Part shown: positions 9,279 through 40,488 of the stretch, piece after piece
Layout of the letters: each line of letters starts with the position of its first letter
Position numbering within the stretch: the stretch's first letter is position 1
Source: an uncultured Bacillota bacterium
GTDB lineage: Bacteria; Bacillota; Clostridia; Peptostreptococcales; Anaerovoracaceae
NCBI GenBank assembly: GCA_927441425.1
Contig: CAKMKG010000007.1
Location: 1 to 64,000 of the forward strand
DNA: 64,000 bases
Reading direction: 5' to 3'
Made by a program: the position numbers and the translations under genes
Notes under the pieces: model-generated
The model's input: the letters and a program-made list of their open reading frames with translations, nothing else
What the model was told of the DNA's origin: nothing
Databases searched by the model: none

Positions 9279-9596
9279 ATGGATTGGAAATTTGTTGTGG
9301 CTTTATTTTTCGCATTAATCGTGGCAGTCTTTGCACTACAAAACGCAGGAGCGGTGGATATCAGCTTTCTGACGATGGAACTTTCCGTATCACAAGCGCT
9401 GGTTATATTGATTTCTGCAGCATTTGGAGCCTTGGTCGTCTTTCTGCTCAGCCTGTTTCGCTGGTTCATCTGCCAGTCTAAAATTAAGACCTCGGCAAAG
9501 ACCATTAACGTGCTGGAGCAGGAAAATAAGCAGTTGAAAATGAAGCTGGAAATGATGACTGCAAATCAAGAGCAGAATCCAGAACCGACAGAGTAA
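9279..9596 (+). CDS. LapA-domain membrane protein
   Basis: FALQNAGAVDISFLTMELSVSQALVILISAAFGALVVFL with C-terminal coiled coil. Confidence 0.8.
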   Translation: MDWKFVVALFFALIVAVFALQNAGAVDISFLTMELSVSQALVILISAAFGALVVFLLSLFRWFICQSKIKTSAKTINVLEQENKQLKMKLEMMTANQEQNPEPTE

Positions 9597-9654
9597 CAAA
9601 TATTTCCTGCTTGACAAACTATTTAGCGGATGTTAACATGTTGACAATTGAATA

Positions 9655-9770
9655 GGTTCTTCAGGGCGGGGTGTGATTCCCCACCGGTGGTAAAGCCCAC
9701 GAGCCGCAAGGCATGATTCGGTGAGATTCCGAGGCCGACAGTATAGTCTGGATGAAAGAAGAAATGAAAA
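9655..9770 (+). ncRNA. FMN riboswitch (RFN element)
   Basis: Conserved core: cagggcggggtgtgattccccaccggtggtaaagcccacgagccgcaaggcatgattcggtgagattccgaggccgacagtatagtctggatgaaagaa. Confidence 0.96.
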
Positions 9771-34869: not shown

Positions 34870-35292
34870 TTATACCCGGTGCTGCCGGATGCGAAAACGA
34901 TGGATATGAAGATATCTGGTAAAAAAAGAGATGGGAATGCATAGGACGAACCATAATGCCGTAAAAGCCAGACAAATCTGGCCAAAAAAATTATAGGGAT
35001 ATCCGGAGTAATCCCATACATTCCAATCAAGCCAAAGGTTGACAACACAGCCTACGGCCAATTCTATCAACGTAATAATGAATGCTCCGACGAAGGCTTT
35101 TTGCCAAAGCGGGGCATTTTCATTCTTGGAGTTCACATAATAAAGAATGATGAAAACAAAGCCCCCTGTGACAATCATAGTCCAGTGAGTAAAGCCGCGG
35201 AACAGGGTTTCCATCAGTCCGTACCCCACTGCTCCAATCATAAATAACAGGATATATTTCTTCCATTGATTCATCTGCGCGATCTTTTCCAT
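34870..35292 (-). CDS. CmpB/PF06541-like multi-TM membrane protein
   Basis: 140 aa, GYGLMETLFRGFTHW, DWNVWDYSGYPYNFFGQICL pattern. Confidence 0.75.
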   Translation of the reverse strand: MEKIAQMNQWKKYILLFMIGAVGYGLMETLFRGFTHWTMIVTGGFVFIILYYVNSKNENAPLWQKAFVGAFIITLIELAVGCVVNLWLDWNVWDYSGYPYNFFGQICLAFTALWFVLCIPISFFTRYLHIHRFRIRQHRV

Positions 35293-35504
35293 TTCATCTC
35301 CCTTTGCATGTTATATTTTGAATTTCAGTGAAAATCGGCCTCACTCACAAATTTATTATTTGCATTCCCATATTGTTTATAGCTGGAAAATAATCATCAC
35401 AGATGATAGAATAGACACAACAAGAAAAAATTAATAATTTCATTTCGATCAATTGTTTTTTATGAAGAATTTGTAAACAGAGGCAATAAGGAGGGTGAAG
35501 AAAG

Positions 35505-37013
35505 ATGAAACCATCAAGGTACAATTTCGTATTTCCTTATCAATTCAACCGGGATTATTCCGTAGTGTACAACGCATTCATGGATTCGGCAGCAATAGTA
35601 ACCGCACGGGAAGCTGAATTTATAAGGACTTGTGATCGAAGTCTGGGGATACATTATACAAAGATCGATGATTTCAAAAACAAGGGCTTTATCATCGATG
35701 CAAATCAGAACGAGCTTTCCATTTTAAAGGTAGAATATTTAAAATCCAAGTTCGATACAAAGCTGTTATCAGTTGTTATCGTTCCAACCTATCAATGCAA
35801 TCTGGACTGTGCTTGCTGCTATGAGAAGCTGAGCTATAGTATGGCTGACTATACTATTATGAATGAGCAGGTTCAGGACAGCATATACAATTGGATCAAA
35901 TCGAAGCTTCCCGGAGTTGAAACCTTGGAGATTTTCTGGCATGGAGGAGAGCCTCTCGTGGCTCTGGATGTGGTCAGACGGCTTGGCGGCATGCTGAAAC
36001 AGCTGGCGGAGGAGCATAACATTGCGTTCGTCTCGGAGATGTCGACAAACGGATATCTGTTTACCGATTCCGTAGCAAGGGAGTTGAAGGATCTGGGTAT
36101 TACTCGATATAAGATGTCGATTGACGGATGCCGGGAAAACCATGACGATCGGAAACGGCACAAGGATGGAAGTGCTACCTATGATACGATTCTGGGGAAT
36201 ATAGAGAAGAGTATCAAATATGTAGATGAGATCGACCTTCGGATTAATGTGGATAAGGAAGATCTCGGGGATGCCTATAAATTGATGAATATTTTGGAGG
36301 AAAAGGGACTCAGCGATAAAGTGATTCCTCGTCTGGGTAAGCCACGAGATTTTGCAGCGCAGAGGAACGATAAGCACTTTACGAAAGAGGAATTCGGCTG
36401 TGAAGCGGTTTATTATTCCTTGCGTCAGGGCATTGGTCCTAAGGAATTTTCGAGAAAGGACTGCTTCTGCCTCGTTAATCAACTGCACAGCATTATCGTC
36501 GACGGGCACGGAACGTTGTTCAAATGTGTTTCCGATACGGGAGACGGACAAAGCAGCGGAAAATTAAAAATTGACGGCACGATAGAGTATAATAAGAATT
36601 TTTATGCCCACGTCATCAATAATCCGCTGGAGAACGATGGATGTGAAAAATGTCCATATCTGCCGCTCTGCGTCGGGGAATGTGCTTTTGACAGAAAAGA
36701 GGGGAACCCTTGTACCTTCGGTTCCTTGACGGAACAATGCTGGGCTCAGTTTATCAATGCTTATGTTGTGAAGAGGCTGTTGAACCGCCTGAACACCAAG
36801 GGATTTTCAACTTCAGGAGATAATGGCATCAATATGGATGATTTAATAATGGGAAAATACAGTGATCAACTGAATCAATTTATCAATAATGCGCAGTCTA
36901 CTGATTATATAGATGATTTGGCCGCCTTGGCGGAGCACTATCATATCACCCTGAGTGATGAGGATGAAAAGCTGCTGCTGCAGTTGATTCGACCCACCGA
37001 GCTTGCACTATGA
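35505..37013 (+). CDS. Radical SAM/SPASM domain protein (peptide-maturase-like)
   Basis: CNLDCACCYEK (CxxxCxxC), WHGGEP, SPASM region with CEKCPYLPLCVGECAFD...CTFGSLTEQCW. Confidence 0.9.
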   Translation: MKPSRYNFVFPYQFNRDYSVVYNAFMDSAAIVTAREAEFIRTCDRSLGIHYTKIDDFKNKGFIIDANQNELSILKVEYLKSKFDTKLLSVVIVPTYQCNLDCACCYEKLSYSMADYTIMNEQVQDSIYNWIKSKLPGVETLEIFWHGGEPLVALDVVRRLGGMLKQLAEEHNIAFVSEMSTNGYLFTDSVARELKDLGITRYKMSIDGCRENHDDRKRHKDGSATYDTILGNIEKSIKYVDEIDLRINVDKEDLGDAYKLMNILEEKGLSDKVIPRLGKPRDFAAQRNDKHFTKEEFGCEAVYYSLRQGIGPKEFSRKDCFCLVNQLHSIIVDGHGTLFKCVSDTGDGQSSGKLKIDGTIEYNKNFYAHVINNPLENDGCEKCPYLPLCVGECAFDRKEGNPCTFGSLTEQCWAQFINAYVVKRLLNRLNTKGFSTSGDNGINMDDLIMGKYSDQLNQFINNAQSTDYIDDLAALAEHYHITLSDEDEKLLLQLIRPTELAL

Positions 37014-37546
37014 ATATTTTTATCAGCGGAGGCTGCAAAAACGGAAAATCATATTACGCCCAGCACCTTGCGAAGAAGCAGGCCTTGGATAATGCACCGC
37101 TTTATTACATCGCAACCATGGAACCTGCAGACGAAGAGGATCAAGCACGGATTCTGCGGCATCAGCAGGAACGGGACGGCTGGGGGTTTACGACACTGGA
37201 AAAGAGTAGTGCCATCGGAGACTTGCATGCTGATTTTTCCGGAAGCTTTCTTTTGGACAGCGTTACCGCCCTGCTGTCCAATGAAATGTTCCGAAAAGAT
37301 GGCACAGTTGATCGGACGGCGCATCTGAGGATTGCCGAGGAGCTGGAGCAGCTAGCCGATCAAAGCGGAAATATCGTATTTGTATCAGACTATATTTATT
37401 CGGATGCGATGAAATATGAAGAGCTGACAGAGTTGTACCGGAAAGGGCTTGCCTGGATCGACAGAGCTCTGGCCAGAAAATGTGATGCGGTGATCGAAGT
37501 GTCCTATGGGAATATCCAATTGTTAAAAGGAGATATTTTACGTTGA
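37010..37546 (+). CDS. cobU: Adenosylcobinamide kinase/adenosylcobinamide-phosphate guanylyltransferase
   Basis: ISGGCKNGKSYYAQHLA P-loop, RHQQERDGWGFTTLE His region. Confidence 0.85.
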   Translation: MNIFISGGCKNGKSYYAQHLAKKQALDNAPLYYIATMEPADEEDQARILRHQQERDGWGFTTLEKSSAIGDLHADFSGSFLLDSVTALLSNEMFRKDGTVDRTAHLRIAEELEQLADQSGNIVFVSDYIYSDAMKYEELTELYRKGLAWIDRALARKCDAVIEVSYGNIQLLKGDILR

Positions 37547-38355
37547 ACTATATACAAGCATTTTTCATGTCATTCGGCATGTTCACGTCCATCCCCTGTC
37601 CTTATCGTCCGTGGAATGAAAAGGCTCGGCATCTGATGCTGGTTTTCCTTCCGCTGGTGGGACTGGTAATCGGGTTCATTTGGTATGGGCTCTATCTGCT
37701 TATGGGCTGGCTCAATATTCCCCTTCAGCTGCAGACCGCCGTGCTGATGCTTTATCCTTATCTTATCACGGGTTTTATTCATTTGGACGGCTTCATGGAT
37801 ACGTCGGATGCGATTTTGTCCGGAAGACCCCTCGAGGAAAAACTGAGAATTTTAAAGGATCCCCATACGGGAGCCTTTGCGGTGATTTCCGTTGGGATCT
37901 TGTTTATTGTCTGTTTTGCGGCTATGTTATCCACGATGGAGCAGCTGCATTTCAGACAGGCGCTGGATATAGCGGTTGGTGATCCTATGCTTGCGTTAAT
38001 TCTGATTCCGATGATCACCAGATGCTGCTCTGCCATAGCGGTGCTTACGGGAAAACCCCTTTCCCACAGTCAATACAACGAGGGGGTGGGTACGACAAAA
38101 CCTCTTTCTGAAGTCACGGCTATCAGCCTCATGGGACTGGCCGCCATTGCAGCAGCGATTGCCATTGGGATGGGGATTTTCGTAAAGGAAGCATCCTATT
38201 CCGTTCCGCTGGTCCTGGCGGCTGCCGTTGCCGCTTACCTAGCAGCAATATTCGGCGCTGCGCGTAGGCTTAAGGGGGTATCGGGTGATCTGGCAGGCTA
38301 TGCTTTAACCATCGGAGAAGCTTTTGCCATCATTATGCTGGCACTGCTGTCATAA
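37543..38355 (+). CDS. cobS: Adenosylcobinamide-GDP ribazoletransferase
   Basis: FTSIPCP, FIHLDGFMDTSDAILSG, KDPHTGAFAVI. Confidence 0.95.
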   Translation: MNYIQAFFMSFGMFTSIPCPYRPWNEKARHLMLVFLPLVGLVIGFIWYGLYLLMGWLNIPLQLQTAVLMLYPYLITGFIHLDGFMDTSDAILSGRPLEEKLRILKDPHTGAFAVISVGILFIVCFAAMLSTMEQLHFRQALDIAVGDPMLALILIPMITRCCSAIAVLTGKPLSHSQYNEGVGTTKPLSEVTAISLMGLAAIAAAIAIGMGIFVKEASYSVPLVLAAAVAAYLAAIFGAARRLKGVSGDLAGYALTIGEAFAIIMLALLS

Positions 38356-38380: not shown

Positions 38381-38785
38381 ATGCATTTAATCTTTGGCGG
38401 TGCTTATCAGGGAAAACTGGATTATGCGAAGGAACGCTATCAACTAGGTGAGGAAGACATCTTCTTCTGCAGCGCAGGGGAAACGGGAGAGGGATGTCCT
38501 TCCGGCCCTCAGATCGATTTGAATAAGAAAGCCGTTGCCCGGTTGGAGGACTTTGTGCTTTGCTGCGTCCGCAGCGGTGTGGAAGCAGCGGATTATCTAG
38601 AGGAACGTCGTGAGGAGTGGAGCAATACAATTTTTCTCTGCACCGATATCTCTGCGGGCATTGTACCCTTTGAAAAGGAACTGAGAGCTTGGAGGGAAAT
38701 GGTAGGGAGAACCCTAACCTATCTTGGAAAGGAAGCGAAGGAGGTCACCAGAGTATTCTGCGGCCTTCCGCAAAAGATAAAATAA
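38381..38785 (+). CDS. CobU-like paralog lacking the guanylyltransferase His region
   Basis: MHLIFGGAYQGKLDYAKERY and C-term TDISAGIVPFEKELRAWREMVGRTLTYLGKEAKEVTRVFCGLPQKIK. Confidence 0.75.
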   Translation: MHLIFGGAYQGKLDYAKERYQLGEEDIFFCSAGETGEGCPSGPQIDLNKKAVARLEDFVLCCVRSGVEAADYLEERREEWSNTIFLCTDISAGIVPFEKELRAWREMVGRTLTYLGKEAKEVTRVFCGLPQKIK

Positions 38786-39384
38786 TGGGAAAGATTCATC
38801 TGATTAGACATGGAACAACCGAAGCAAATACTGCTCAAATGTATTACGGAAGCACGGACTTGCCCCTCAGCAACGAAGGGGTTGATATCATCGCAAATCT
38901 GACAGCCGCCAAGGCATATCCGAAAGCCGACGGTGCGATCCTGTATACAACCGGCTTACTGCGGACGGAGCAAACCTTTTTCCTGATCTATGGCTGCCGG
39001 GAGCATCACACGGTGCCCGAACTGAGAGAATACCACTTCGGGGACTTCGAAATGAAAACCCACGATCAATTGATGGAGAACGAGGAGTATCAGGCGTGGA
39101 TCAATGACACGAAAGGCATGACGCCCTGCCCTGAGGGAGAGAGCCCTCATGAGTTCCGTTCCAGGATCTGTGCGGGTTTTTCAATCATATTGGAGAAACA
39201 CAAGAGCCAAGAATACAACGATAGGAACAGTATCCTCGTCTGCCACGGCGGCGTGATCTCTGTGATCATGGGGCTATGCTTCCCCCATTCGGAAAAGAAC
39301 ATCTTCCAGTGGCAGCCAGAGCCGGGCAGAGGATATACGATCCATATTGAGGGTGGAGAACCCATCTCCTATGATGAAATTTAA
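38785..39384 (+). CDS. Histidine phosphatase family (CobC/alpha-ribazole phosphatase-like)
   Basis: LIRHGTTEANTAQMYYGSTDLPLSNEG; LVCHGGVISVIMG. Confidence 0.85.
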   Translation: MGKIHLIRHGTTEANTAQMYYGSTDLPLSNEGVDIIANLTAAKAYPKADGAILYTTGLLRTEQTFFLIYGCREHHTVPELREYHFGDFEMKTHDQLMENEEYQAWINDTKGMTPCPEGESPHEFRSRICAGFSIILEKHKSQEYNDRNSILVCHGGVISVIMGLCFPHSEKNIFQWQPEPGRGYTIHIEGGEPISYDEI

Positions 39385-39460
39385 AATGGTTTAGGAGTGT
39401 TACATTTATAAAGAAAAAAAGGTATAATGATAGATATTAAAGAAGAAAGTGGGATTCCCT

Positions 39461-39709
39461 ATGTTGAAAAAAAAATTTTGGTTCAGTGAAAATGAAAGTT
39501 TTAATATGGATGATGAATTCGACCGTGCAGAAGTGAAAAGAAGATCCGACCGATTCTACTGTCAATATGAGTATATCAAGTGCGAATATGCGAGAAACAT
39601 CGAAGGGAAAGAATTTAGCTGCGAAAAGATGATTGACGGAACCTATAAAGAGCGACCGGATCCCATCGAAGGCCACGGTAAGTGCAGGGCATATAAGGTA
39701 AAGAGATGA
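39461..39709 (+). CDS. Small Cys-containing hypothetical protein
   Basis: 82 aa with four Cys, 4-nt overlap with next gene. Confidence 0.6.
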   Translation: MLKKKFWFSENESFNMDDEFDRAEVKRRSDRFYCQYEYIKCEYARNIEGKEFSCEKMIDGTYKERPDPIEGHGKCRAYKVKR

Positions 39710-40488
39710 TAAAAATTAATTTGGATCAATGCATCGGATGCTTAAAATGCGTTTCGGTTTGCCCCTTTCGCATTTTAGAGGCTAAGCAAGGAAAGCCGGA
39801 AATGAGTGAGGTGAAACGATGCGTTCGTTGCCTTCACTGTGCTGCTGCCTGCCCTCAGAAGGCAATTGGACTAGGCGAGCTTGAGGGGATTTTGCCTGAT
39901 GAAATGCCGACGTTTCCCGGAGATTTCCATAAGCAGATTGAGGGATTTCTGATGACAAGAAGATCTTATAGGAGCTTTAAACAGGAAGCTGTGCCGAGAG
40001 AGATCTTGCTCCGAGCGCTTCGGGTTTCGGCCTGGGCTCCCAGTGCGAAAAATCAACACCCGACAAGGTGGATCGTAGTCGACGATGATAAAAAGATAAA
40101 AATCATAATGGACCACATTCTGGAATACGTGAGAGAAACCGGAATTTCGCCGGAGATTGCAGAATTATATGAACGGGGAAAGAATGTGGTGATGGGAAAC
40201 GCGAAGACACTCCTGCTTGCTTATGCCGGAACCAATGCAATCAACCCGCCGGTGGACACGGCCCTTGCCATGCATCAAGTAGAATTGATGCTTCAAGCAC
40301 AGGGAATCGGGACCTGTTGGGCAGGATACTTCACGAGAATGTGCAATCAGGTTCCTGCCCTGCGTGAGATGTTGAAGCTGCCGGAGGGTTGCCAATTCTA
40401 TTGCGCAATGATGGTAGGTTATCCCGAGAAAGAACAATATCTACATATTCCCAATCGGCCTATCCAGCCCAATATTCAATGGTTATAA
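39706..40488 (+). CDS. Nitroreductase family protein with N-terminal 2x[4Fe-4S] ferredoxin domain
   Basis: CIGCLKCVSVCP and CVRCLHCAAACP; RRSYRSFKQEAVPREILLRAL; ASAKNQHP-type motif. Confidence 0.93.
   Translation: MIKINLDQCIGCLKCVSVCPFRILEAKQGKPEMSEVKRCVRCLHCAAACPQKAIGLGELEGILPDEMPTFPGDFHKQIEGFLMTRRSYRSFKQEAVPREILLRALRVSAWAPSAKNQHPTRWIVVDDDKKIKIIMDHILEYVRETGISPEIAELYERGKNVVMGNAKTLLLAYAGTNAINPPVDTALAMHQVELMLQAQGIGTCWAGYFTRMCNQVPALREMLKLPEGCQFYCAMMVGYPEKEQYLHIPNRPIQPNIQWL

Follow-up and report, generated by a model that had tools for sequence, protein, structure and literature searches.

The radical SAM/SPASM protein encoded ahead of cobU in this DNA (P0001) is best explained as an orphan maturase for a peptide or protein, from a narrow, unclassified lineage, with its gene inserted in a cob operon and its substrate unlinked, a reading that we hold with moderate confidence. 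The gene is probably an optional peptide-modifying gene with a partner elsewhere, and not a B12 enzyme; the enzyme class, RiPP-maturase-like, is supported, and a cobalamin function is not. The sequence anatomy, homology, distribution and predicted fold of P0001 are shown here, as are the purifying selection on its gene and the lack of that gene in two close relatives. The window referred to below is the whole stretch of 64,000 nucleotides that was analysed, and its relevant features are listed in Table 1.

The first-pass annotation described the open reading frame as a radical SAM-SPASM peptide-maturase-like enzyme, and motifs, profiles and predicted fold all agree with that description. The radical SAM motif of P0001 is C98-X3-C102-X2-C105 (PF04055 at 1.8e-13), and the SPASM set is complete (C322-X13-G336-X4-C341 ... 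C380-X2-C383-X5-C389-X3-C393-X9-C403), following the seven-cysteine pattern CX9-15GX4C...CX2CX5CX3C...C. All ten cluster cysteines, three in the radical SAM motif and seven in the SPASM domain, are invariant in an alignment of 21 homologues. An AlphaFold2 model of the whole protein has a mean pLDDT of 81.5. Its N-terminal region (pLDDT about 85-94) consists of strands and then helices in residues 7-82 and aligns with Clo7bot/TIGR04463-type maturases; the predicted fold is that of the RRE/PqqD-like leader-binding domain expected of a RiPP maturase. The gene is under strong purifying selection, with dN 0.032 and dS 0.44 between its orthologues in G197 and G823, two genomes of the same genus.

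Table 1. Coordinates of the radical SAM gene, its domains and the surrounding cob locus (window positions unless a locus is named)
Feature	Position	Strand	Basis or remark
Radical SAM/SPASM protein P0001, 502 aa	35505..37013	+	ORF, profile matches, alignment, model, fold search
Ribosome-binding site GGAGGG, ATG 9 nt downstream	35490..35495	+	Sequence
RRE-like winged-helix domain (predicted), N-terminal, residues 1-85, three strands then helices	35505..35759	+	AF2 model, alignment
Radical SAM barrel, residues 87-300, C98/C102/C105	35763..36404	+	Pfam PF04055, invariant cysteines
SPASM domain, residues 320-403, seven cluster cysteines	36462..36713	+	Invariant in 21 sequences
Lineage-specific C-terminal tail, residues 434-502, short helices, ends PTELAL	36804..37010	+	Conserved in 5 orthologues
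ATGA stop/start overlap, TGA stop with cobU start at 37010	37010..37013	+	Sequence
cobU	37010..37546	+	PF02283
cobS	37543..38355	+	PF02654
CobU-like short protein (cobU2)	38381..38785	+	PF02283, C-terminal part
cobC-like alpha-ribazole phosphatase	38785..39384	+	TIGR03162/PF00300
Divergent CmpB-like membrane protein, adjoins promoter in 7/7 loci	34870..35292	-	PF06541
Putative promoter box TTATTATTTGY-N14-TATAKCTGG-N16-ATGATAGAAT	35353..35412	+	Conservation across loci, consensus scan
-35-like TGGAAA	35384-35389	+	Within operon promoter box
Extended -10 TGATAGAAT	end 35412	+	Within operon promoter box
Nested hairpin, radical SAM gene-cobU spacer	L011 10371-10610; L037 9860-10080; L038 reverse complement 9457-9700		Three species

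Among NCBIfam models, the best matches of P0001 were to TIGR04463 (181 bits, against a curated cut-off of 525), CefB (NF038107; 180 against 600), Clo7bot (TIGR04334; 178 against 600) and geopeptide (TIGR04280; 155 against 400), and the TIGR04463, CefB and Clo7bot alignments span most of residues 1-397. P0001 shares with these four families an RRE-like N-terminus, a radical SAM barrel and a seven-cysteine SPASM domain, and aligns with them to about residue 400, but differs from them in having an extra C-terminal tail and no linked Cys-rich precursor. Because the scores lie far below every curated family cut-off (roughly 30-40%), the substrate class cannot safely be transferred. With NF040492, a ScfB-related radical SAM/SPASM 'orphan maturase', P0001 has in common the idea of an orphan-named maturase, but the families are separate (53 bits against a cut-off of 855). 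For distant homologues from the order, class and phylum, identity is mostly 23-31% and the alignment reaches only about residue 400-423; all lack the tail (about residues 434-502). The clade of the window stands on a tree stem of about 1.5 substitutions per site. Tandem Cys-rich peptides lie beside the distant homologues at L022, L023, L025, L027, L032, L106 and L109 and, less clearly, at L021 and L030; none were seen within the 1.5 kb flanks of the others. The pair at L106 (960-1389; 63 and 66 aa, 10 Cys each) adjoins a Clo7bot-like maturase from another family of the phylum, and a similar pair occurs in L109. Other radical SAM genes were noted along the way: a Clo7bot-like gene of G197 accompanied by an ABC transporter and by an aminotransferase-like gene (L014 5570-10217), a closely similar set in G140 (L013 9546-14252) and, in the window's genome, a gene whose 703-aa product is a fusion of a radical SAM protein with DUF5714 (PF18978; L003 1408-3519).

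When the model of P0001 was used in a fold search, CteB (PDB 5wgg) came first and anaerobic sulfatase maturase (anSME) second, followed by TigE, SuiB and ChlB, all of which modify peptides or proteins. The SCIFF/ranthipeptide maturase CteB has the same succession of RRE, barrel and SPASM domains, but is only 18% identical to P0001; its N-terminal RRE binds the leader, and its SPASM cluster has an open site (PMC8326336). A separate CteB-like protein (L004) is more likely than P0001 to be the SCIFF maturase of the window's genome.

The rank of anSME (PDB 4k36-4k39), which has the same barrel and SPASM fold, bears on an alternative that we judge unlikely: that P0001, like anSME or QhpD, modifies a protein, the target enzyme being encoded elsewhere. 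The want of a linked small precursor would suit such an enzyme, and the repeated loss of the gene described below fits a dedicated maturase lost along with its target. However, the RRE-like N-terminus and the best profile matches are of the RiPP-maturase type, P0001 reaches 62 bits against a cut-off of 349 for the anSME family, and no candidate target was identified. An RRE-like N-terminus is not known in anSME.

The linked DNA was searched for a substrate. As first reported for the window, the upstream DNA has no precursor-like ORF: every ORF of at least 20 aa in it overlaps promoter sequence, and what is conserved there recurs in genomes without the radical SAM gene. At the five orthologous loci no precursor peptide was found encoded nearby; no small ORF near the gene is conserved apart from promoter DNA, and Cys-rich ORFs do not exceed the number expected from shuffled sequence. 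We rejected two candidates. An upstream 39-aa ORF ending in VIFCQPMCKEE has equal length in G197, G820 and G823 and is absent from the window and from Sinanaerobacter; between G197 and G823, 14 of its codons differ, all nonsynonymously, and there is no protein-level conservation before a block that runs into the ribosome-binding site. A 55-aa Cys-rich ORF in the gap between the radical SAM gene and cobU of G823 is part of the hairpin region and lacks conservation. A Cys-rich precursor profile, which is a weak probe, had no match in the window's genome, and over six genomes it gave weak matches outside that genome, the best at 0.009 in G066. Given the purifying selection, the lack of a linked small ORF and the lack of a profile match, it is simplest to assume a functional enzyme whose substrate is unlinked.

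Full-length orthologues, 65-68% identical to P0001 with the tail included, were found in four other genomes only: G197, G820 and G823 of the same genus, and Sinanaerobacter chloroacetimidivorans (G066). The search comprised 1,737 genome look-ups in overlapping samples, some of them made for other queries. All five genes sit between the operon promoter and cobU within one syntenic block, ordered as crp-like regulator, citrate synthase, divergent CmpB-like gene, radical SAM gene and cobU-cobS-cobU2-cobC. Recurrence beside cobU and cobS, which the first-pass annotation had proposed as a check, therefore holds for 5/5 orthologues, each without a precursor; the opposite pattern, in which orthologues would be accompanied by precursors at sites remote from cob genes, was not seen. 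The tree of the radical SAM gene follows the species order, which indicates vertical descent, so that the repeated cob linkage counts as one event and not five. Since the block is vertically inherited, linkage in five genomes is no independent evidence for a cobalamin role.

Pfam and NCBIfam confirmed the genes of the cobU-cobS-cobU-like-cobC-like operon that the radical SAM gene heads; the CobU, CobS and CobC identities come from these profiles, at scores below the NCBIfam equivalog cut-offs. The promoter box has its full spacing in six of seven loci, and G822 keeps the first part with the second half changed. It is also carried by the loci without the radical SAM gene, directly preceding cobU in G821 and likewise lying upstream of cobU in G822. 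Its first 34 bases have one perfect match in each of the seven genomes, at the cob locus, and so gave no sign of a regulon under this box. As judged from sequence, this putative promoter is the cob operon's own element, and the radical SAM gene appears to borrow it. No B12 riboswitch was found by Rfam in the 25-46 kb part of the window. Downstream of the operon, positions 39449-39709 (+) encode a protein of 86 aa that contains four to five cysteines and matches no family; its gene overlaps the start of a ferredoxin-nitroreductase gene (39706-40488) and was found at none of the other six loci.

In the congeneric genomes G821 and G822 the radical SAM gene is missing, and the CmpB-like gene, the promoter box and cobU-cobS-cobU2 are in place; short leader DNA alone separates promoter and cobU. 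The genomes are incomplete (66 and 74%), with the locus on one contig in each. In a tree of CobU and CobS, G822 groups with the window at a support of 99, and the placement of G821 has a support of 47. Shortly before cobU, G822 reads TTG ATT CAA CCG ACA TCG CTT GCA TAA (LIQPTSLA*), which resembles the LIQPTELA end of the orthologues and is an apparent 3'-end scar of the radical SAM gene. At 29 nt (79%, E 0.44) the local match is a short one, and the interpretation rests mainly on position and reading; the absence of the gene from G822 does not depend on it.

Translational coupling to cobU fared less well than the overlap from which it had been proposed. The 4-nt ATGA is present in the window, but coupling is absent from the other four orthologous loci. 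In Sinanaerobacter a cbiR-like gene separates the radical SAM gene from cobU, and in G197, G820 and G823 about 200 nt intervene; folded, this spacer reaches -75 to -89 kcal/mol, and the nested hairpin in it is very stable. The hydrolase CbiR remodels cobamides, and 80% of its homologues adjoin cobamide genes (PMC7733943).

These comparisons weigh against a cobalamin-related role, one of those first suggested for the gene. On that reading, the target of the enzyme would be a corrinoid, a lower-ligand precursor or a Cob protein, and this would be why its gene is coupled to cobU; we regard this as quite unlikely. In its favour, every orthologue lies at the cob locus behind the cob promoter, the window has the ATGA overlap, and the Sinanaerobacter gene adjoins a cbiR-like gene. 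Moreover, the usual order in other genera of the family is cbiR-cobT-cobU-cobS-cobU2, with cbiR-cobT in the same place and cobT often overlapping or abutting cobU. Nevertheless, the gene is not kept wherever its lineage keeps the cobU-cobS operon, as G821 and G822 demonstrate, and among the family's other genomes with cobU, those searched for both genes had no orthologue. The coupling is not a conserved feature, and in three species the strong hairpin stands between the gene and cobU. Nor did the radical SAM gene replace cobT, because the group's cobT lies elsewhere: it is present away from the operon in every cobU-bearing genome of the group (in G821 as no more than a fragment). In the window's genome cobT is beside a cbiA-like gene, at L071 65-1405, between that gene and one for a LigB/AMMECR1 fusion protein. 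The SPASM-like relatives NirJ and AhbC are able to act on tetrapyrroles. They match P0001 at 1e-14 to 1e-16, but over the barrel only, and P0001 has an RRE-like domain besides. The persistence of the gene behind one and the same cob promoter in five genomes could nonetheless reflect a condition-dependent link.

The tail of about 70 residues after the SPASM region, which had been singled out as unexplained, is conserved in 5/5 orthologues. Its last residues, LLxQLxxPTEL, are conserved and the spacer is not. The tail is under purifying selection and evolves somewhat faster than the whole gene (dN/dS 0.075/0.88 between G197 and G823). It is poorly modelled, with low confidence in the whole-protein model and a pLDDT of 49 when modelled separately. 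By eye it looks like a Nif11 leader, a likeness that we rejected: searches of Pfam and NCBIfam at E<=10 and a profile search of PDB gave no meaningful match. We see only a small chance that the tail is the enzyme's own substrate or a leader mimic, or else that P0001 acts in trans on an unlinked peptide tied to cobinamide salvage via the cobU promoter. A self-contained maturase, its PTELA-ending tail serving as leader mimic or substrate so that P0001 would act on itself or on a second copy, is very improbable: the lack of a linked precursor, the restriction of the tail to this lineage with its conserved end, and the selection on it are in its favour, but the tail has no conserved cysteine, matches neither Nif11 nor another leader family and yields only low-confidence models.

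For an orphan maturase with an unlinked substrate, the following course may be proposed. The gene would have entered between the promoter and cobU of the cob operon in the ancestor shared by the window's genus and Sinanaerobacter, and would have descended vertically since, with loss probably at least twice. From the cob operon the gene would gain a promoter and, in the window, translational coupling, but nothing else. By analogy with its family (PMC8326336), the RRE-like N-terminus may bind a leader, on a peptide or protein whose gene would lie elsewhere in the genome. The [4Fe-4S] cluster at CX3CX2C would reductively cleave SAM to a 5'-deoxyadenosyl radical, which would abstract a hydrogen from this substrate, and the two SPASM clusters would accept an electron, bind a substrate cysteine, or both. 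To go by kinship, the product would most likely be a thioether or similar cross-link; the substrate class is likewise a matter of inference.

P0001 thus marks out a small branch of radical SAM/SPASM maturases that is unclassified, carries an additional C-terminal domain and has no substrate linked to it. It also illustrates that operon position can mislead, in that a gene overlapping cobU turns out to be optional once close relatives are compared. The substrate, if found, would reveal the role of this orphan maturase, and whether the tail stands in for a leader or a partner.
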